In this document: positions 22,347 to 32,807 of the stretch, in pieces
Layout of the letters: each line of letters opens with the position of its first letter
How positions within the stretch are numbered: position 1 is the first letter of the stretch
Notes under the pieces: model-generated
The model's input: only the letters and a program-made list of their open reading frames with translations
Told to the model about the DNA's origin: nothing
Databases searched by the model: none
Position numbers and translations under genes: made by a program
NCBI RefSeq assembly: GCF_006438875.1
Contig: NZ_RCZH01000005.1
Location: forward strand, 186,001 to 250,000
Direction of reading: 5' to 3'
Length of the DNA: 64,000 nucleotides
From: Flavobacterium pectinovorum
Lineage (GTDB): Bacteria; Bacteroidota; Bacteroidia; Flavobacteriales; Flavobacteriaceae

Positions 22347-22405
22347 TGCAAGATTAAAGATGCAAGAAACAAGAAAAATCTTTTCTCTTTCTTCTTGCCT
22401 CTTTC
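22347..22405. repeat. Palindromic repeat of CAAGAAACAAG type
   Basis: The left part is built of GCAAGAT and GCAAGAAACAAGAAAA words, and the right part is CTCTTTCTTCTTGC. The arms pair imperfectly around a short centre. The element lies in the 83-base gap between the TPR and PhzF genes. Confidence 0.65.
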
Positions 22406-22427
22406 AAAAAATAAAATAAAGAAAAAA

Positions 22428-23291
22428 ATGAGTTTACCTTTTTATATAGTTGATGTTTTTGCAGATAAAAGATATGCCGGTAATCAATTGGCGGTTTTTT
22501 TAGATGCTGAAAATTTAAGTTCTGAAGAAATGCAGCAAATGGCACGCGAAATTAATTTTGCAGAAAGCACATTTGTTACCAAACTTGATTTAGAAAATAA
22601 TAAAGCTGAGATTAAAATTTTTACTCCGGCGCATGAAATGCAATTTGCAGGTCATCCGATCATTGGAACTTCGTGGGTTTTGATGAATAAGATTTTTAAA
22701 AACGAACCAAAACAGATCACTTTGAATGTTCCAATTGGGCCAATCGCGATTCATAAAACGGAAGATTTGATTTGGTTAAAAGCGGCACAGCCAAAATTTT
22801 GGGACATTTTTGCGAAAGAAGATTTTACAGTATTCAGCAATCTGAAAAATCATGATTTTGAAAATCAATTCCCTATTCAGGAAGTAACGACCGGAAGTGC
22901 CTTTGTAATGGTTGGATTAAGTAGTAAAAGAGCTTTGGAAAATTTGGTTTTAGATAAGGATAAAACAGATGAATGGTTGAAAAAGAATTGCAAAACAGAT
23001 CATAGAGCTTTGTATTTCTATTATTTAGAAGGTTCGAAATTGTTTAGCAGAATGTTATGTATTGAACACAATCAATTGGTAGAAGATGCTGCGACAGGAA
23101 GCGCAAGTACTTGTTTACAGGCTTTTTTATTAAAATATCATAAGCCTGAATTTGAAATGATTAATCATCAGGGAGATTATATCAACCGCCCGTCTCAGAT
23201 TTATTTCAACGGAAAACTAACCGATAATCAATTTGATATTAAAATAGGTGGAAAAGCTCAATTTGTTGCAAAAGGAGATTGGGAAGTTTAG
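22428..23291 (+). CDS. PhzF family isomerase-like enzyme
   Basis: From the ATG at 22428 the product is 287 residues. The extension to 22395 adds only a charged stretch derived from the repeat, so I reject it. Two-lobed PhzF features are seen: YIVDVFADKRYAGNQLAVF at the start, the catalytic glutamate E46 in NFAESTFV, FTPAHEMQFAGHPIIGT, and the second-half motif EDAATGSAS. PhzF-like proteins catalyse isomerisations related to phenazine precursor chemistry, but most homologues outside phenazine clusters, like this one, have unknown substrates. No other phenazine gene is present. Confidence 0.9.
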   Translation: MSLPFYIVDVFADKRYAGNQLAVFLDAENLSSEEMQQMAREINFAESTFVTKLDLENNKAEIKIFTPAHEMQFAGHPIIGTSWVLMNKIFKNEPKQITLNVPIGPIAIHKTEDLIWLKAAQPKFWDIFAKEDFTVFSNLKNHDFENQFPIQEVTTGSAFVMVGLSSKRALENLVLDKDKTDEWLKKNCKTDHRALYFYYLEGSKLFSRMLCIEHNQLVEDAATGSASTCLQAFLLKYHKPEFEMINHQGDYINRPSQIYFNGKLTDNQFDIKIGGKAQFVAKGDWEV

Positions 23292-25333: not shown

Positions 25334-25783
25334 ATGGAATTCAAACAAAAAATATATTCTCACTATTTACAAATGGTTCAGGACCGAATTGATGTTTTTA
25401 GGGACATGATTTCGGCTTTGACCGAAGATTCTAAAAACGATGCCAAAGGTTCGGCGGGTGATAAGCACGAAACGGCTCTGTCAATGATGCATATCGAGCA
25501 GGAAAAACTAACTAATAAACTGAAAGAAGCGATTACTCAAAAAGCTATTTTGGATAAAATTGACGCATCAAAAACTACTGAGAATATCATTTCAGGCAGT
25601 TTGGTAAAAGCCAACGGAATTTATTTGTATGTAAGTGTCGCACTTCCTAAAATTGCAATTGACAGTATAAATGTTATTGCACTTTCTCCACAATCTCCTC
25701 TTGGTTCTCATTTAATGGGGAATAAGGTTGGGTTTACTTTTGAAATTAATAAGACGCATTATACGATTGAGAGTGTTGTGTGA
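25334..25783 (+). CDS. Small GreA/GreB C-terminal-like protein
   Basis: I use the ATG at 25334 (149 residues); the earlier in-frame ATG at 25268 lies inside the palindromic repeat. The N-terminal half is helical and charged (KHETALSMMHIEQEKLTNKL), as in the coiled coil of Gre factors. The C-terminal half has VIALSPQSPLGSHLMGNKVG, much like the SPLGxALLGKxVG part of the GreA C-terminal domain that binds RNA polymerase. I therefore call it a Gre-like protein, perhaps acting at the polymerase secondary channel. It is shorter than the usual GreA of about 158 residues, and the acidic coiled-coil tip is not clearly conserved. Confidence 0.6.
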   Translation: MEFKQKIYSHYLQMVQDRIDVFRDMISALTEDSKNDAKGSAGDKHETALSMMHIEQEKLTNKLKEAITQKAILDKIDASKTTENIISGSLVKANGIYLYVSVALPKIAIDSINVIALSPQSPLGSHLMGNKVGFTFEINKTHYTIESVV

Positions 25784-25788
25784 TTTTA

Positions 25789-25914
25789 TTTCACGCAGAT
25801 TTAACAGATTTAAGCAGATTAAAAAAGGATTTATTTGCAATGTTGTCGAATTACTTTATTAATAATTCAGTGCTAAAATAAAAATCCGTTTAAATCTGTG
25901 AAAATTAGTGCGCC
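25789..25914. repeat. Palindromic repeat (CAGATTTAACAGATT type)
   Basis: TTCACGCAGATTTAACAGAT and AAGCAGATT at 25789-25831 pair with AATCCGTTTAAATCTGTGAA at 25883 onward, with a GCGCC end at 25914. It lies just after the GreA-like gene. The 453-base gap up to asnB also contains the AT palindrome at 25989 and otherwise only AT-rich sequence. Confidence 0.75.
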
Positions 25915-25988
25915 ATTTATTAGTTATATCTATTAAAACACTAATTTCTGAACCGCTTTTCTTCTTCTCTTTAGGAATCTTTCATGGA

Positions 25989-26006
25989 TTTTGAATTAAT
26001 TCAAAA
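25989..26006. promoter_or_regulatory. Perfect 18-base AT palindrome upstream of asnB
   Basis: TTTTGAATTAATTCAAAA is a perfect palindrome, and a half-site TTTAATTCAAAG follows at once. It lies about 230 bases before the asnB start. It could be a repressor site, but AT-rich sequence makes such palindromes by chance, so support is weak. No convincing TAnnTTTG promoter was found between here and asnB. Confidence 0.3.
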
Positions 26007-26235
26007 TTTAATTCAAAGATTTCTTTAAAACCTTATATTTTGTGCTTCTTTTAGGTCTGAAATTGAAATTTTTAAGTTTCGATCTTTTTTTTATGCTAAA
26101 ATTTTACATTTTGTATGTAAATTATGAATTATGGTTTAAAATTACAACTTAAACTATCTTTTGTGTTTTTCAATTGTAACCGTTAATGCATCTTTGCCTT
26201 ATCAAAATAAAATTTTAAAATAAAAATATATAGTT

Positions 26236-27912
26236 ATGTGTGGAATCGTATGTGCCTTTGATCTAAAACAAAAAGCCGAAACCTTAAGACCTCAAGTATT
26301 AGAGATGTCAAAAATCATTCGTCACCGTGGACCGGACTGGAGCGGGATTTATAGCAATGACAAAGCAATTTTATCTCATGAGCGTTTGGCTATTGTAGAT
26401 CCAGCTTCAGGAAAACAACCTTTATTTACAGAAGATAAAAAATTGGTTCTGGCTGCAAATGGTGAAATCTACAACCACAGAGAATTGCGTAAACAATTTG
26501 AAGGAAAATATAACTTTCAAACTGAAAGTGACTGTGAAGTTATCTTAGCTCTTTACAGAGAAAAAGGACCTCATTTTATAGATGAAATGAACGGAATCTT
26601 CGGATTTGCAATTTATGATGTTGAGAAAGATGAGTATTTTATTGCTCGTGATCACATGGGGATTATTCCACTTTATATTGGATGGGATCAGGATGGAACT
26701 TTCTACGTAGCATCTGAATTGAAAGCTCTTGAAGGATATTGTACAAAAATCCAATTGTTTCCTCCGGGACATTATATGACAAGCAAAGACGGCGAATTTG
26801 TACAATGGTACAAAAGAGACTGGACAGAATACGATGCAGTAAAAGACAACGAAACTAGTATTCCTGAAATCAAAAAAGCACTTGAAGCGGCGGTTCACAG
26901 ACAATTAATGAGTGATGTTCCTTACGGAGTTTTACTTTCCGGAGGTTTAGATTCTTCTATTACATCGGCTGTAGCCAAAAAATATGCACAAAAACGTATT
27001 GAATCAGATGATACTACGGATGCCTGGTATCCGCAATTGCACTCTTTTTCAGTAGGATTAGATGGTTCTCCTGATTTGGCTGCAGCTCAGATTGTAGCAA
27101 AACATATCGGAACGATTCACCACGAGATTAAATTTACGATTCAGGAAGGTTTAGACGCTGTTCGTGATGTAATTTACAACTTAGAAACATATGACGTAAC
27201 TACCGTTAGAGCTTCGACTCCAATGTGGTTAATGGCGAGAGTTATTAAGTCAATGGGTATCAAAATGGTATTGTCAGGTGAAGGTGCAGATGAGTTGTTT
27301 GGAGGATATTTATACTTTCATAAAGCACCAAACGCAAGAGAATTTCACGAAGAAAACGTTCGTAAATTAGGTAAACTTCATATGTACGATTGTTTACGTG
27401 CAAACAAAAGTTTAGCAGCTTGGGGAATTGAAGGTCGCGTTCCATTCTTGGATAAAGAATTTATGGATGTGGCAATGAGAATCAACCCACAGGATAAAAT
27501 GATCAACAAAGAGCACCCAATGGAAAAATGGGTGGTTCGTAAAGCATTTGAAGATATGTTGCCGGAAAGTGTAGCATGGAGACAAAAAGAACAATTCTCA
27601 GATGGAGTAGGATACAGCTGGATTGATACTTTGAAAGAAGTTGTTGGAGAAGCAGTTTCTGATGAGCAATTGGCAAATGCGAAATATAAATTTCCGTTAC
27701 AAACGCCAACTTCTAAAGAGGAATATTACTATCGTTCCATCTTTGCAGAACATTTTCCTAGTGATGCTGCAGCATTATGTGTGCCTCAGGAAGCAAGTGT
27801 TGCTTGTAGTACAAAAATTGCTTTGGAGTGGGATGAAGCTTTCAAAAACATGAACGATCCTTCCGGAAGAGCTGTGGCAAGTGTTCATGATGACGCTTAC
27901 GCTAAAGTATAG
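26236..27912 (+). CDS. asnB: Glutamine-dependent asparagine synthetase B
   Basis: This 558-residue protein is a complete class-II glutaminase plus ATP-dependent synthetase. The nucleophile Cys2 (MCGIV), the RHRGPDWSG loop, N75 in NGEIYN that forms the oxyanion hole, and SDCEVI are all in place. The synthetase half has the PPi loop LLSGGLDSS, VLSGEGADELFGGY and EQFSDGVGYSW. It makes asparagine from aspartate, glutamine and ATP in the cytoplasm and closely resembles E. coli AsnB in length and motif text. A second, altered copy follows 308 bases downstream. Confidence 0.97.
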   Translation: MCGIVCAFDLKQKAETLRPQVLEMSKIIRHRGPDWSGIYSNDKAILSHERLAIVDPASGKQPLFTEDKKLVLAANGEIYNHRELRKQFEGKYNFQTESDCEVILALYREKGPHFIDEMNGIFGFAIYDVEKDEYFIARDHMGIIPLYIGWDQDGTFYVASELKALEGYCTKIQLFPPGHYMTSKDGEFVQWYKRDWTEYDAVKDNETSIPEIKKALEAAVHRQLMSDVPYGVLLSGGLDSSITSAVAKKYAQKRIESDDTTDAWYPQLHSFSVGLDGSPDLAAAQIVAKHIGTIHHEIKFTIQEGLDAVRDVIYNLETYDVTTVRASTPMWLMARVIKSMGIKMVLSGEGADELFGGYLYFHKAPNAREFHEENVRKLGKLHMYDCLRANKSLAAWGIEGRVPFLDKEFMDVAMRINPQDKMINKEHPMEKWVVRKAFEDMLPESVAWRQKEQFSDGVGYSWIDTLKEVVGEAVSDEQLANAKYKFPLQTPTSKEEYYYRSIFAEHFPSDAAALCVPQEASVACSTKIALEWDEAFKNMNDPSGRAVASVHDDAYAKV

Positions 27913-27950
27913 AAGTTGAATTATTAGAATTAGTATATATATTGTGGAAG

Positions 27951-27976
27951 AACGTTCTCGAATGAGGACGTTTTTC
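27951..27976 (+). terminator. Probable terminator after asnB
   Basis: AACGTTCTC and GAGGACGTT pair with one mismatch around a four-base loop and are followed by TTTTTC. It lies 40 bases after the asnB stop, so the second synthetase gene probably has its own promoter. Confidence 0.6.
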
Positions 27977-28051
27977 TTGTCTTAAATTGTTAAATTATAT
28001 AATTTCAGTTACTTAAAAAGATTTTTCAGTAATTATTTGACTTTACTTTTT

Positions 28052-28059
28052 TATATTTG
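28052..28059 (+). promoter_or_regulatory. Candidate -7 element (TATATTTG) for the second synthetase gene
   Basis: TATATTTG matches TAnnTTTG exactly. No TTG sits at the best distance (the nearest is 12 bases upstream). A transcript from here would have a leader of about 155 bases. The rest of the 308-base gap is AT-rich with the terminator at 27951. Confidence 0.5.
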
Positions 28060-28220
28060 ACATTCGTCAAAATGGGGTTAAATCACTTTGATTATAAAGC
28101 TGTTATTAAAGAAAAGCAGGATTTAGTTCTTGGTTTTCTGTGAAATACAATGATTTTTATACCTGATATATGTTGTTTGGGGCATGACAGGAAAACGGAA
28201 TAAATAAAAAATAGAATAGT

Positions 28221-29837
28221 ATGTCTGGATTATTGGCCGTTATTGGTAAAGGAAAAGACCCGCAACTCGTAAAAGAGCTTTCTAAAAGAATGTCACATCG
28301 CGGTCCTGATGAAAATGATTTGCAAATTATGGAAAATGGCAGCATAATCAGTCATGAGAGCTTGTCGATTATTGATTTGAAGTCAGGAAAACAACCTATT
28401 CAGGGAACTAAAAAAGCCTGGATGGTTCATGATGGGGAAATCTATAATTATCAGGAATTAAAAGATACGGTTTTAAAAGAGCATAGTTTTAGAACAAAAT
28501 CAGATTCAGAGGTAATCGTGCATTTGTATGAAGAATTTGGAAATGATTTTTGCAATATGCTTGATGGGGATTTTGCTTTTGTAGTAGTAGATGGTGATAA
28601 CTATATTGCAGGAAGGGATCCTATTGGGGTAAAACCTTTGTATTATGGTTTAGATGAAAGAGGACGAATTTATTTTTCGTCTGAAATGAAACCAATTGCG
28701 GATCAATGTAAAACATTCTCTACTTTTCCTCCGGGACATTATTATACACCAAAAAAAGGGTTTGTAAAATATTATAAGCCTGAATATGAGGATTACGAAA
28801 ATGCTGTTGAAGATCTTAATTTAGATTTAATCAAAGATACTTTTACAGAAGCTGTTCGTAAGCGTTTAATGAGCGAGGCGCCACTAGGTGTATTGCTTTC
28901 AGGTGGATTAGACTCCTCTTTAATAGCTGCAATAGCCTCCAGGATTTTCGCGGAAAGCGGAAAAAAACTGCAAACATTTTCGATTGGTTTAGATGCAGAT
29001 GCACCAGATGCTAAAGCAGCGAGAAATGCGGCTGAGTTTTTAGGTACAGAACATCAGGAAGTTCATTTTTCAATTGAAGATGGAATTGGACTTTTAGAGA
29101 AAATCATTTATCATATTGAAACTTACGATATAATTTCGGTTAGAGCCAGTGTGCCTATGTATTTGTTATCGAAAGCAATTGCCGAAAAAGGAATTAAGGC
29201 TATTCTTTCCGGTGAAGGCGCTGACGAAATTTTTGGAGGGCATATGTATTTTAGAAATGCACCATCAACAGAAGAATTTCAGAAGGAAACAATCGAAAGA
29301 GTTCAAAAATTATTTACCGCCGATTTATTGCGTGCTGATAAATCGACAATGGCAAACGGAATAGAGACGAGGGTTCCATTTTTGGATACTGCATTTCTGG
29401 ATGCTACAATTCGTATAAAACCACAAGAAAAACAGCCAAAAGCATATGATGGTATCGAGAAATATATTTTAAGAAAAGCATTTGATACACCTGAAAATCC
29501 CTATTTGCCAAATGATATTTTATGGCGCCAGAAAGAGCAGTTTTCTGATGGAGTTGGATATAATTGGATTGATGAATTAATCGAACATTGTTCCTCTCAA
29601 GTTACAGACGAACAATTAGCAGGAGCAAATGTTGAGTTTTCATATAATTCTCCAACTACAAAAGAGGCGTATTTATACCGATCTATTTTTCATAAATATT
29701 ATCCGCAAATTAGCGCTGCGCAAACGGTTCGAAAATGGATTCCGAAATGGCAGGAAAACCAAGATCCAAGCGGAAGAGCAAATGCGGCTCATAAAGAAGG
29801 AAATTTTGAAACTGCAAAATCTGGTGTGGCAGTTTAG
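28221..29837 (+). CDS. Asparagine synthetase-like protein with degenerate glutaminase site
   Basis: This 538-residue paralogue keeps both domains of AsnB, but the N-terminus reads MSGLL: Ser2 replaces the catalytic Cys2. D71 in VHDGEIYN replaces the oxyanion-hole Asn of NGEIYN. RGPD and KSDSEV remain. The synthetase half is intact, with LLSGGLDSS, ILSGEGADEIFGG and EQFSDGVGYNW. It therefore probably cannot use glutamine and may use free ammonia or another amine, or serve a different amide ligation. Similarity over the whole length to the preceding asnB suggests an old tandem duplication. The start is fixed by the AsnB-like N-terminus. Confidence 0.9.
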   Translation: MSGLLAVIGKGKDPQLVKELSKRMSHRGPDENDLQIMENGSIISHESLSIIDLKSGKQPIQGTKKAWMVHDGEIYNYQELKDTVLKEHSFRTKSDSEVIVHLYEEFGNDFCNMLDGDFAFVVVDGDNYIAGRDPIGVKPLYYGLDERGRIYFSSEMKPIADQCKTFSTFPPGHYYTPKKGFVKYYKPEYEDYENAVEDLNLDLIKDTFTEAVRKRLMSEAPLGVLLSGGLDSSLIAAIASRIFAESGKKLQTFSIGLDADAPDAKAARNAAEFLGTEHQEVHFSIEDGIGLLEKIIYHIETYDIISVRASVPMYLLSKAIAEKGIKAILSGEGADEIFGGHMYFRNAPSTEEFQKETIERVQKLFTADLLRADKSTMANGIETRVPFLDTAFLDATIRIKPQEKQPKAYDGIEKYILRKAFDTPENPYLPNDILWRQKEQFSDGVGYNWIDELIEHCSSQVTDEQLAGANVEFSYNSPTTKEAYLYRSIFHKYYPQISAAQTVRKWIPKWQENQDPSGRANAAHKEGNFETAKSGVAV

Positions 29838-29842
29838 GTATA

Positions 29843-29947
29843 GAAATTCCAAATTTTAAAATTCCAAATTCCAATTACGTTTTTTAGTTTAAATAATGAT
29901 ATATATAATCCGAAACGATATTTAAAGTATTGGTTTCGGATTTTTTT
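29843..29947 (+). terminator. AAATTCCAAATTCC repeat plus terminator after second synthetase gene
   Basis: Repeated AAATTCC words (29843-29877) are followed by a hairpin ATCCGAAAC (29908 onward) and GTTTCGGAT, then a run of T. The hairpin is a good intrinsic terminator. The same arrangement recurs after the M16 gene. Confidence 0.75.
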
Positions 29948-30000
29948 ATGATTAATTTTAAGAATATGGTTTCCCGTAAATTATTAAAAGTAAGTTAATA

Positions 30001-30035
30001 TTGGTGTATCGTGTTTAAGAAAAATACTATATTTG
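30001..30035 (+). promoter_or_regulatory. Bacteroidota-type promoter for the M16 gene
   Basis: TTG at 30001-30003 and TATATTTG at 30028-30035 are separated by 24 bases, one more than the usual upper limit. The start codon is at 30072, giving a leader of about 30 bases. Confidence 0.6.
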
Positions 30036-30071
30036 GTTACCAAAAATTAACTAATCCTTTAACTATAATCT

Positions 30072-32807
30072 ATGAGAAACTTATTATTAAGTGGAATTCT
30101 TTACTGCTCATTGGCTTCATTGAGTTCAGTTTATGCACAAAAATCGGAAGCGCCCAAATACATTAAAAATGTAGAAGGAGTTAAGGAGTATACTTTAAAT
30201 AACGGACTTAAAGTCCTTTTGATTCCTGATGCTTCTCAAAGCAATATGGTTGTAAATATAGTTTACAATGTGGGTTCAAGAAATGAAGGTTATGGCGAAA
30301 AAGGTATGGCGCATTTGTTAGAGCATATGCTTTTTAAGAGTACCAAAAATTTGGGAGATATTAAAAAAATGCTTTCTGATAAAGGTGGAAATGCTAACGG
30401 AACAACCTGGTTAGACAGAACTAACTATTACGAGGTTTTTCCATCAAGTGATGAAAATCTAAAATGGAGTATCGAAATGGAAGCGGATCGAATGATAAAC
30501 GCAACTATTTTGCAAGCAGATTTATCAAAAGAGTTTTCTGTGGTAAGAAACGAATTTGAAATTGGAGAGAATAATCCGGATCGTGTTTTACAGGAAAGAA
30601 TTCTTTCGGCGGCTTATTTGTGGCACAATTACGGAAAAAGTACTATTGGAAGTAAAGAAGATATAGAAAGAGTGAAAGCAACTACGCTTAGGGCTTTTTA
30701 CGAAAAATATTACCAGCCGGACAATTCAACTTTAATAATTGCAGGTAAGTTTGAAGAGCAAAAAGCGTTACAATATGTTGGGCAATATTTTGGAGCTATT
30801 CCAAGGCCAAAGAGAGTTCTGGATAAAACTTATACAGTTGAACCGGCTCAGGATGGTGAAAAATATGTAGAGCTTAACAGAGCAGGAGATAGTAAAAACA
30901 TTGGTGCTTTGTATCACACAGCAGCTTATGTAGACAAGGATTATGCTGCAATTGATGCTTTGGGCGAAATTTTAACTTCGGATCCATCCGGATATTTATA
31001 TAAGTCATTAATAGAAACTCAAAAAGTGTCCAGTATTTATTATTGGCAGCCAACTACCAGAGATGCAAGTTATATTTATTTTGGAGTAGCAGTTCCTAAT
31101 GATAAGGATATTAAAGTTTCTAAAGACTTAGTCAGAACAGAGTTGGATAAAATTGCAACGACTAAATATACTGATGAAGATGTAACGAGAGCCAAGGCAA
31201 AAATTATAAAGCAACTTGATGGTATAAAAAATAATACCGTTTCGTTTGCAATAAATCTTACTGAAATTGTTGGCGCAGGAGATTACAGATTAGGTTTTAT
31301 GTATAGAGATGCAGTCGAAAATCTGACTAAAGAAGATATTCAAAGAGTTGCAGAGAAATATTTCAGAAGCAACAATAGAACAGTTGGAATTTTTATTCCG
31401 TCTAAGGATGAGCAAAGAGTGAAACCTGTCGAATATACAGATGAGCAAATAGTAGCTTTGACTAAAGATTATAAAGGAAAAGCTTTAGAAAAAGAAACTG
31501 CCGCATTTGAGGCTTCTATTAAAAATTTAAAACAAAATTTTGTAGAAGGTAAATTGAGCAACGGTACAAAATATGGCTTAATCAAAAAAGAAATAAAAGG
31601 TGGTAAAGTTCAGGCTAGTTTTCAGTTTCCGGTAAGTAATGAAAAGGATTTAACAGGGAAATCAGATACAGGAGGAATTTTGGCTCAGTTATTAAAAACA
31701 GGGACAACAACCAGAACTAAAGAACAAATTAGCGATCGTCTGGATCAGTTAAAATCGAGTATTTATTTTAATTTTTCAAAACAAACTTTATCTGTAAATG
31801 TAAACACCTATAAAGAAAATTTTAAAGAAGTAATGGAGATTCTGGGAGATTTGCTTGTTAATTCTACTTTTCCGGAAAATGAATTAACAAAGACAATCAG
31901 CGAATACAATACTTATTTAGAAGGAAATCTTAATGATCCGCAATCAGTTGCTTTTACAGAACTTTCCAGACAAACTACAAATTATCCAAAAGGAAGTATT
32001 TTTTATACACCAACAATTCAGGAGCAGATAGATGCATTTAAAAAAATCAAGCAAACGGAAATAGTAGATTTTTATAAAAATATTCTTGGTGGAAATAATG
32101 GTGTTGGAAGTGTTGTAGGAGATTTGGACGGAAAAACTACAACTCAGATTTTAGAAAATACTTTTGGAAAATGGAATTCAAAATCAAAATATGAATTAGC
32201 TAAACCTACTTATTTTGAAACGAAAGTATTGGATAAGGATTTTATAACTCCTGATAAAGAAAATGCGGTAGCGCTTGGAAGAATTGGTTTTAAAATGACC
32301 AGAAGCAGTGCAGATTATCCGGCATTTGTAATGGCTAATGAAATATTAGGAAGCGGAGGTTTTTTGAGCGCAAGAATTCCGATGAGACTAAGAGAAAAAG
32401 AAGGAATAAGTTACGGAGCAGGTTCATTTATTGATGTGCCTATTACAAGTGATGTTGCTTCATGGTCGTATTATGCTTTTTTAAATCCGACTAAAAAGAA
32501 TGCTGTTGAAACGGCTACAAAAGAAGAAATTGCAAAAGCCTTAAAAGATGGTTTTACAGCCGAGGAACTAAAATCAAACCTGGTGAGCTGGCAGAATGAA
32601 AGAAAAACAAGATTGGGCAGTGATGACACTTTAATGAGTCTTGTAAATACTTATTTGCAATACGGAATTCCTTTAGAGGATTACGATAACCTGGAAAATA
32701 AAGTAAAAGCATTAAAAGTTGAAGAAGTAAATGCTGTTTTGAAAAAATATTTGAGTTTAGATAAAATGACTTCTGTTTATGCAGGGGATTTTAATAAGAA
32801 ATTGTAA
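30072..32807 (+). CDS. M16 family (insulinase-like) zinc metallopeptidase, secreted
   Basis: This 911-residue protein has a signal peptide ending near SSVYAQ. The inverted zinc motif HLLEH is at residues 81-85, and E161 sits at the right distance to be the third ligand. The second half repeats the M16 fold without a zinc site (FGKWNSKSKYE, RIPMRLREKEGISYGAGSF), so one chain holds an active and an inactive half. Such peptidases degrade peptides in the periplasm. It has its own promoter and terminator. Confidence 0.93.
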   Translation: MRNLLLSGILYCSLASLSSVYAQKSEAPKYIKNVEGVKEYTLNNGLKVLLIPDASQSNMVVNIVYNVGSRNEGYGEKGMAHLLEHMLFKSTKNLGDIKKMLSDKGGNANGTTWLDRTNYYEVFPSSDENLKWSIEMEADRMINATILQADLSKEFSVVRNEFEIGENNPDRVLQERILSAAYLWHNYGKSTIGSKEDIERVKATTLRAFYEKYYQPDNSTLIIAGKFEEQKALQYVGQYFGAIPRPKRVLDKTYTVEPAQDGEKYVELNRAGDSKNIGALYHTAAYVDKDYAAIDALGEILTSDPSGYLYKSLIETQKVSSIYYWQPTTRDASYIYFGVAVPNDKDIKVSKDLVRTELDKIATTKYTDEDVTRAKAKIIKQLDGIKNNTVSFAINLTEIVGAGDYRLGFMYRDAVENLTKEDIQRVAEKYFRSNNRTVGIFIPSKDEQRVKPVEYTDEQIVALTKDYKGKALEKETAAFEASIKNLKQNFVEGKLSNGTKYGLIKKEIKGGKVQASFQFPVSNEKDLTGKSDTGGILAQLLKTGTTTRTKEQISDRLDQLKSSIYFNFSKQTLSVNVNTYKENFKEVMEILGDLLVNSTFPENELTKTISEYNTYLEGNLNDPQSVAFTELSRQTTNYPKGSIFYTPTIQEQIDAFKKIKQTEIVDFYKNILGGNNGVGSVVGDLDGKTTTQILENTFGKWNSKSKYELAKPTYFETKVLDKDFITPDKENAVALGRIGFKMTRSSADYPAFVMANEILGSGGFLSARIPMRLREKEGISYGAGSFIDVPITSDVASWSYYAFLNPTKKNAVETATKEEIAKALKDGFTAEELKSNLVSWQNERKTRLGSDDTLMSLVNTYLQYGIPLEDYDNLENKVKALKVEEVNAVLKKYLSLDKMTSVYAGDFNKKL

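Follow-up and report, generated by a model that had tools for sequence, protein, structure and literature searches.

Flavobacterium pectinovorum carries two tandem genes of the asparagine synthetase B family, asnB1 and asnB2, in a 64,000-nucleotide stretch of its genome (contig NZ_RCZH01000005.1, positions 186,001 to 250,000), referred to here as the window. The protein of the second gene, AsnB2, lacks three key residues of glutamine hydrolysis and differs from its intact relatives at fixed positions of its synthetase half. We propose that AsnB2 has been neofunctionalised into an AsnB-type ligase that works without glutamine and retains its old glutaminase domain as a non-catalytic module, a reading to which we assign a rough probability of 0.47. 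The losses in AsnB2, their confinement to a single clade, the strong purifying selection and the company of AsnB1 are established by comparing the sequences. A large group of Flavobacterium species has such a second AsnB, kept intact under selection, and its job probably differs from its annotation.

AsnB1 begins with MCGIV and contains the motif LAANGEIYN, whereas the open reading frame (ORF) of AsnB2 translates to MSGLL and WMVHDGEIYN. The two proteins, both encoded on the forward strand, are 44% identical over 539 aligned columns, and a search with AsnB2 through the 52 contigs (6.46 Mb) of the window's genome returned AsnB1 and AsnB2. The model NF006949 (asparagine synthase B, cut-off 499 bits) is passed by AsnB1 at 942.3 bits and by AsnB2 at 677.5, so annotation is likely to give both proteins that name, AsnB2 included; TIGR01536 (cut-off 267.1) is passed by AsnB2 as well, at 432.1 bits. 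Its residues contradict the activity in the titles of the curated models that it passes, asparagine synthase B and glutamine-hydrolyzing asparagine synthase; for many Flavobacterium genomes, annotations and metabolic models alike are therefore probably in error at this point. AsnB2 also poses, in a form open to experiment, the question of which function is left to a glutaminase domain that has stopped cutting glutamine. Literature searches with little coverage of subscription journals found no description of a glutaminase-dead AsnB in Flavobacterium.

Loss of the glutaminase residues in one clade

AsnB2 genes were collected from a contig scan (80 loci, the best 80 of 264 relatives), from searches through 40 relatives and through genomes of the genus (398) and of the order (148), and from 60 further stretches. 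We extracted 163 complete AsnB2 genes, 150 after removal of identical DNA, and 139 distinct AsnB1 genes; the sample is skewed to close relatives of the window AsnB2, and its fractions do not measure how common each type is across the genus. At the places of the nucleophile, Arg49 and Asn74 of E. coli AsnB, the 150 distinct AsnB2 read Ser/Ser/Asp (92), Ser/Gly/Asp (1), Gly/Arg/Asn (6) or Cys/Arg/Asn (51), and all 139 distinct AsnB1 read Cys/Arg/Asn. We call the 51 copies intact and the remaining 99, none of which has an N-terminal Cys, dead; the dead copies are Ser-type (93) or Gly-type (6). The Ser-type window protein reads HESL where E. coli AsnB has HERL, Ser47 taking the place of Arg49 (Arg-48 in human), which PMC6748925 gives as a glutamine-binding residue. 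Arg49 and Asn74 are both missing from it (Ser47, Asp71) and are both retained by the six Gly-type copies, and Gly75, Glu76 and Asp98 of the glutamine site are kept as G72, E73 and D95 in 99/99 dead copies. The Gly-type copies (L151, L158, L159, L162, L165 and L169) also have altered RGPD and HER motifs.

Three key residues gone, a single clade and AsnB1 beside it strongly support the loss of glutamine hydrolysis in AsnB2, and they make glutamine-dependent asparagine synthesis by this protein very unlikely. An earlier note on this DNA had seen Cys2 and NGEIYN in the first AsnB, Ser2 (MSGLL) and HDGEIYN in the second and a gap of 308 bases between them, as the ORFs confirm. It had proposed that AsnB2 is independent of glutamine, a reading supported in part, by the probable loss of hydrolysis. 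Close relatives share Ser2 where a Cys codon would have pointed to a sequencing error, and the suggested conservation of Ser2 and Asp71 in a clade is borne out, as Ser and Asp occur together in 93 of 150 distinct orthologues, inside one clade. The note had missed Ser47 for Arg49, Tyr77 for His80, Ile305 for Thr321 and His341 for Tyr357.

In a tree of the 150 AsnB2 with three AsnB1, all 99 non-Cys copies form one clade (support 100) on a stem of 0.148 changes per column, and the same clade returns with support 100 when 17 signature positions are removed. These trees are quick builds without bootstrap; their long-branch warnings concern the outgroup and the loci L018 and L019 and do not name the dead clade. 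The Gly-type copies are sister to the Ser-type group, which has support 81 and in which the earliest branch, L125, has Ser/Ser/Asp yet His77 and Arg81. From this branching order, the synthetase changes common to all 99 copies arose on the stem. The Cys was lost on the stem too, or else separately at the base of each line, to Ser in one and Gly in the other; Arg49 and Asn74 were replaced in the Ser line only, and His77 to Tyr and Arg81 to Lys followed the split of L125. The intact relatives, the Gly-type side branch and L125 offer steps in the conversion of a primary-metabolism amidotransferase. A similar conversion may have occurred in the line of the beta-lactam synthetases; here close relatives survive.

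The extracted intact orthologues within the genus are about 69-80% identical to the window AsnB2. Outside the genus, the sole close relative in the sample of 148 genomes of the order lies in another family (genome G026, L019) at 59% identity, possibly by transfer between families. It and L018 (69% identical) are divergent intact copies on long branches.

Synthetase half, selection and fold

The synthetase domain of AsnB2 keeps its PP loop (SGGLDSS at 227) and has two substitutions fixed in the dead clade, Ile305 and His341 (Table 1). Human numbering was validated on 28 named residues of the human enzyme, asparagine synthetase (ASNS), all 28 of which fit the alignment. The place of Ile305 is that of human Thr-336, described in PMC6748925 as highly conserved across kingdoms and lying on the synthetase active-site surface; the same source reports a patient variant, T336I, that almost abolishes glutamine-dependent activity. 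Nine ATP-, adenylate- or aspartate-site residues, at positions taken from PMC6748925 and PMC11615228, are kept in 99/99 dead copies (D231, D263, S330, G331, E332, D335, D368, R371 and K438), as are R308 and E382. The lysine among the nine has a counterpart in E. coli AsnB that PMC6748925 describes as essential. The earlier note had called the synthetase half intact, and the motifs that it quoted (LLSGGLDSS, LSGEGADE, FSDGVGYNW) are there, but Thr to Ile and Tyr to His are fixed changes within that half.

The ammonia tunnel, whose human positions were taken from PMC11615228, is loosened at two places. L225 and A372 are invariant in the 51 intact AsnB2 and 139 AsnB1; the dead clade has L in 45, V in 35 and I in 19 copies at the former and A in 82 and V in 17 at the latter. 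Slight variation is seen at M313 (Met in 93/99 dead copies) and V137 (Val in 94/99 and Ile in 5). At the gate, the place of human Arg-142, dead and intact copies have the same Lys, and the remaining two tunnel positions are variable in intact copies as well.

Purifying selection on the dead copies is strong, and in the Ser-type copies the synthetase domain is the looser one. The ratio of nonsynonymous to synonymous change (omega), a pairwise Nei-Gojobori median over sampled pairs with a synonymous divergence (dS) of 0.2-1.5 and rough because dS is near 1, is 0.053 in the N domain and 0.087 in the C domain of the 93 Ser-type sequences, 0.054 and 0.046 in the six Gly-type, 0.058 and 0.050 in the 51 intact, and 0.024-0.037 in AsnB1. 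Amino-acid differences in the C domain relative to the N domain give a ratio of 1.53 in Ser-type copies (column bootstrap 1.16-2.00), against 1.01 (0.81-1.30) in intact copies when L018 and L019 are left out and 0.74 (0.56-0.91) in AsnB1. At cut-offs that we set at 98% and 90%, intact AsnB2, AsnB1, E. coli and human share 131 invariant columns, of which 15 are altered among the 99 dead copies; in the reverse test, where Ser-type copies take the place of intact AsnB2, there are 119 invariant columns, and 3 of them are altered in the intact copies. The old glutamine pocket of the 93 Ser-type sequences keeps Ser2 in 93, Ser47 in 92, Asp71 in 93, Gly72 in 93, Glu73 in 93, Tyr77 in 92 and Asp95 in 93. 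The dead pocket is thus nearly frozen, and the drift of an abandoned site would look otherwise.

An AlphaFold2 model of AsnB2, built from 41 aligned sequences, has a mean predicted local distance difference test score of 77.7 and a predicted template modelling score of 0.83, with low confidence at 27-32, 47-55 (which includes Ser47), 436-445 and 508-538. In this model the fold is an ordinary AsnB fold, with a dead glutaminase domain predicted at about 1-190 and an altered N-type ATP-pyrophosphatase synthetase domain at about 191-538. The closest structure is E. coli AsnB, 1ct9 (Z 46.5, 485 residues, 1.8 A, 44% identity); human ASNS (6gq3, Z 41.4) has the same fold and domain order, and next in the list stand TsnB9, beta-lactam synthetase and carbapenam synthetase. 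With glutamine-dependent AsnB the protein shares the SGGLDSS PP loop, the adenylate-site residues and the passing of NF006949, but it lacks Cys1, Arg49 and Asn74, has Ile for Thr321 and His for Tyr357, and is loosened at the two tunnel positions. The intact Flavobacterium AsnB2 are its direct orthologues and, unlike the dead copies, keep Cys/Arg/Asn and Tyr341 in 51/51 and Thr305 in 50/51.

The glutaminase domains of beta-lactam and carbapenam synthetases are inactive. These enzymes (1jgt, 1m1z, 1q15) are remote from AsnB2, at 20-23% identity and Z of about 25-31 (1m1z, Z 31.0 and 23%; 1q19, Z 25.2 and 20%), and a phmmer search gave 459.1 bits for AsnB and 57.6 and 67.4 for these enzymes; the scanned neighbours of AsnB2 include no antibiotic genes. 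AsnB-like ligases with changed products are already on record. PMC6594144 treats beta-lactam synthetases as AsnB-like ligases with changed chemistry, and PMC8554201 describes a Listeria AsnB, annotated as a glutamine-dependent asparagine synthase, that makes another amide in peptidoglycan by amidating mDAP. Compared by that description, AsnB2 differs from the Listeria enzyme in lacking the glutaminase residues. It falls below the cut-offs of the XrtA/PEP-CTERM amidotransferase model TIGR03108 (229.2 bits, cut-off 816.9) and the N-acetylglutaminylglutamine amidotransferase model TIGR03104 (194.8, cut-off 570.1).

Table 1. Features of the asnB1-asnB2 locus, in window coordinates
Feature	Position	Strand	Basis or conservation
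AsnB1, by sequence an ordinary asparagine synthetase B with Cys/Arg/Asn present	26236..27912	+	ORF, 558 aa; NF006949
Terminator-like hairpin and T run behind asnB1, AACGTTCTC...GAGGACGTTTTT	27951..27976	+	read by eye; matching stretch conserved in 71 aligned Ser-type gaps
Promoter-like TATATTTG	28052..28059	+	TTTG identical in 24/24 aligned leaders; also in 71-gap consensus
AsnB2, AsnB-family protein	28221..29837	+	ORF, 538 aa; Pfam GATase_7, GATase_6, Asn_synthase; NCBIfam NF006949
Ser2 codon, place of the Cys1 nucleophile	28224..28226	+	S 93, G 6, C 51 of 150 distinct AsnB2; C 139/139 AsnB1
Ser47 codon, place of Arg49 (E. coli) / Arg-48 (human)	28359..28361	+	S 92, G 1, R 6 of 99 dead copies
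Asp71 codon, place of Asn74	28431..28433	+	D 93, N 6 of 99 dead copies
Tyr77 codon, place of His80 (E. coli)	28449..28451	+	Y 92, H 7 of 99 dead; H 51/51 intact, 139/139 AsnB1
Ile305 codon, place of Thr321 (1ct9) / Thr-336 (human, mature)	29133..29135	+	I 99/99 dead; T 50/51 intact AsnB2, 139/139 AsnB1
His341 codon, place of Tyr357 (1ct9) / Tyr-373 (human, mature)	29241..29243	+	H 99/99 dead; Y 51/51 intact AsnB2, 139/139 AsnB1

A model for AsnB2 and its competitors

In the model that we favour, AsnB2 would derive from an asparagine synthetase that depended on glutamine. In one lineage of Flavobacterium, which also had AsnB1, this enzyme would have lost glutamine hydrolysis and changed in its synthetase half. 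That half would still bind ATP and activate an aspartate-like acid as its acyl-adenylate, open to attack by ammonia or another small amine that enters directly and not through the glutaminase tunnel. Selection would maintain the rebuilt pocket, in which Ser2, Ser47, Asp71 and Tyr77 join the old acids Glu73 and Asp95, either as the site of a ligand or for the sake of domain or dimer structure. We infer that AsnB2 has no glutaminase activity, retains adenylation and has an altered acceptor or nucleophile. The different amide suggested in the earlier note draws some support from the fixed synthetase changes, and its idea of a structural or regulatory role for the dead domain fits the strong purifying selection.

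Several points weigh against this model. Its weak point is the substrate and nitrogen donor of AsnB2, which lie beyond the reach of sequence alone, and the neighbouring genes scanned in the window point to no pathway. According to PMC6748925, the patient-variant residues of the human enzyme do not seem to lie next to aspartate or ATP, and T336 is therefore no ground for assuming a changed acceptor; Ile305 also occurs in one intact copy (L168, genome G044), which has AsnB1 beside it. E332, D335 and R371, which hold the amino and carboxylate groups of aspartate, are unchanged in dead copies, and this is also compatible with aspartate as the acid and with asparagine synthesis from ammonia. The Gly-type copies show no looser synthetase domain, and where that domain is looser it could mean that activity matters less and that AsnB2 is regulatory.

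We nonetheless favour a neofunctionalised ligase over a plain ammonia enzyme and over a regulatory partner of AsnB1. The first of these alternatives, on which AsnB2 would carry out the AsnA reaction (aspartate, ammonia and ATP) with an AsnB when ammonium is plentiful, is rather unlikely. AsnB2 itself does not belong to the AsnA family, since PF03590 is absent among its six Pfam matches (E 0.001), and the window's genome has no match to PF03590, nor to the amidase family PF01425 of the GatCAB route; the full conservation of adenylate-site and aspartate-holding residues suits such an enzyme, and human ASNS can use free ammonia according to PMC11615228. Yet ammonia use requires neither the fixed Thr to Ile and Tyr to His changes nor a nearly frozen dead pocket, and a dead AsnB2 was never seen as the sole AsnB of a good genome. 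With AsnB1 counted as present at E <= 1e-170, it occurs in 78 of 79 genomes with a dead AsnB2 and in 77/77 of those of good quality, the exception being G405, 81% complete; for genomes with an intact AsnB2 the counts are 23/42 and, at good quality, 23/40. The genomes compared are related, and these counts are not independent.

Of the 42 genomes with an intact AsnB2, 19 show no AsnB1, so an intact AsnB2 can be a genome's sole AsnB. None of the 19 has AsnA, and five encode a member of the amidase family, possibly GatA, so that intact AsnB2 would be the only known asparagine route in at most 14. Since AsnA is missing from these AsnB1-less genomes, intact AsnB2 probably makes asparagine, and dead AsnB2 probably occurs where AsnB1 can cover the need for it.

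A regulatory or structural partnership with AsnB1, in which AsnB2 would form mixed dimers or filaments or sense a ligand through the rebuilt pocket and its synthetase chemistry would be secondary, seems to us doubtful. The constant company just described speaks for it, as do the strongly constrained N domain, the looser Ser-type synthetase domain and the arrangement of the genes: in all 90 stretches with a complete AsnB1 (84/84 Ser-type, 6/6 Gly-type), dead AsnB2 lies 202-325 nt behind it. But intact AsnB2 may be tandem too, within 600 nt of AsnB1 in 10/19 such stretches, and in genome G114 (L080) the pair lies on different contigs, with no AsnB1 within 5 kb before AsnB2. Nine conserved ATP and adenylate residues, including the counterpart of the essential lysine, go beyond the needs of a pseudoenzyme, and a terminator-like hairpin and a promoter-like element lie between the two genes. 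The idea that AsnB1 has co-adapted with AsnB2 was considered and set aside, as AsnB1 beside dead and beside intact AsnB2 have just one near-fixed difference (F/Y).

An improbable variant is that the glutaminase site has been rebuilt as a new binding site that steers either the altered ligase of AsnB2 or AsnB1. The pocket may bind ammonium or an amine because it is acid-rich, the carboxylate-binding Arg having been lost and Asp added beside Glu73 and Asp95, and nearly invariant in the 93 sequences; if so, AsnB2 would be an AsnB-family enzyme whose donor domain has turned into a nitrogen sensor. Finally, a decaying duplicate or sequencing artefact, which the lost catalytic residues and the varied RGPD and HER motifs of the Gly-type sister clade might suggest, has hardly any probability left: Ser/Ser/Asp in 92/150 distinct orthologues rules out a sequencing error or lone oddity, whole-gene omega is 0.076 (Ser-type) and 0.045 (Gly-type), only 3 of 168 loci with an AsnB2 match are without a complete gene, all at a stretch end, and in-match stops occur in five loci, all within the last six columns.

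Intergenic region, exchange and neighbours

The promoter-like TATATTTG in the gap resembles the Bacteroidota -7 promoter element, TAnnTTTG. Given this element and the terminator-like hairpin before it, asnB1 and asnB2 are probably transcribed separately. In many Ser-type genomes the asnB2 leader would measure about 160 nt (28060-28220 in the window), and its consensus contains an AAAGCA...TTTGCT pair; it seems to be shorter in Gly-type copies and in several of the intact ones. An Rfam scan of 25700-30200 for a riboswitch or known RNA near the asnB genes gave no match at the gathering score, and a conserved regulatory leader was likewise rejected, by alignment and with no consensus fold computed, as the 24 aligned leaders show little besides TATATTTG and the bases preceding the start codon.

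A clean vertical history of the locus was expected and not found: the dead label needs three changes on a tree of 114 AsnB1 genes, two of them forced by well supported branches. At five loci (L086, L087, L095, L134 and L140), an intact AsnB2 follows AsnB1 at a distance of only 154-162 nt, and this AsnB1 is placed near the AsnB1 of dead-AsnB2 genomes, a pattern that hints at horizontal exchange or at replacement of AsnB2 at the locus.

Upstream of the pair, at 22395-23291, lies a gene for a PhzF-family protein (PhzC-PhzF, 164.2 bits), for which no link to the asnB genes was found. Elsewhere in the window's genome, a 401-residue open frame (L202; G000 contig 23, 14794-15162) has a weak partial Asn_synthase match of 22.7 bits against a cut-off of 21.
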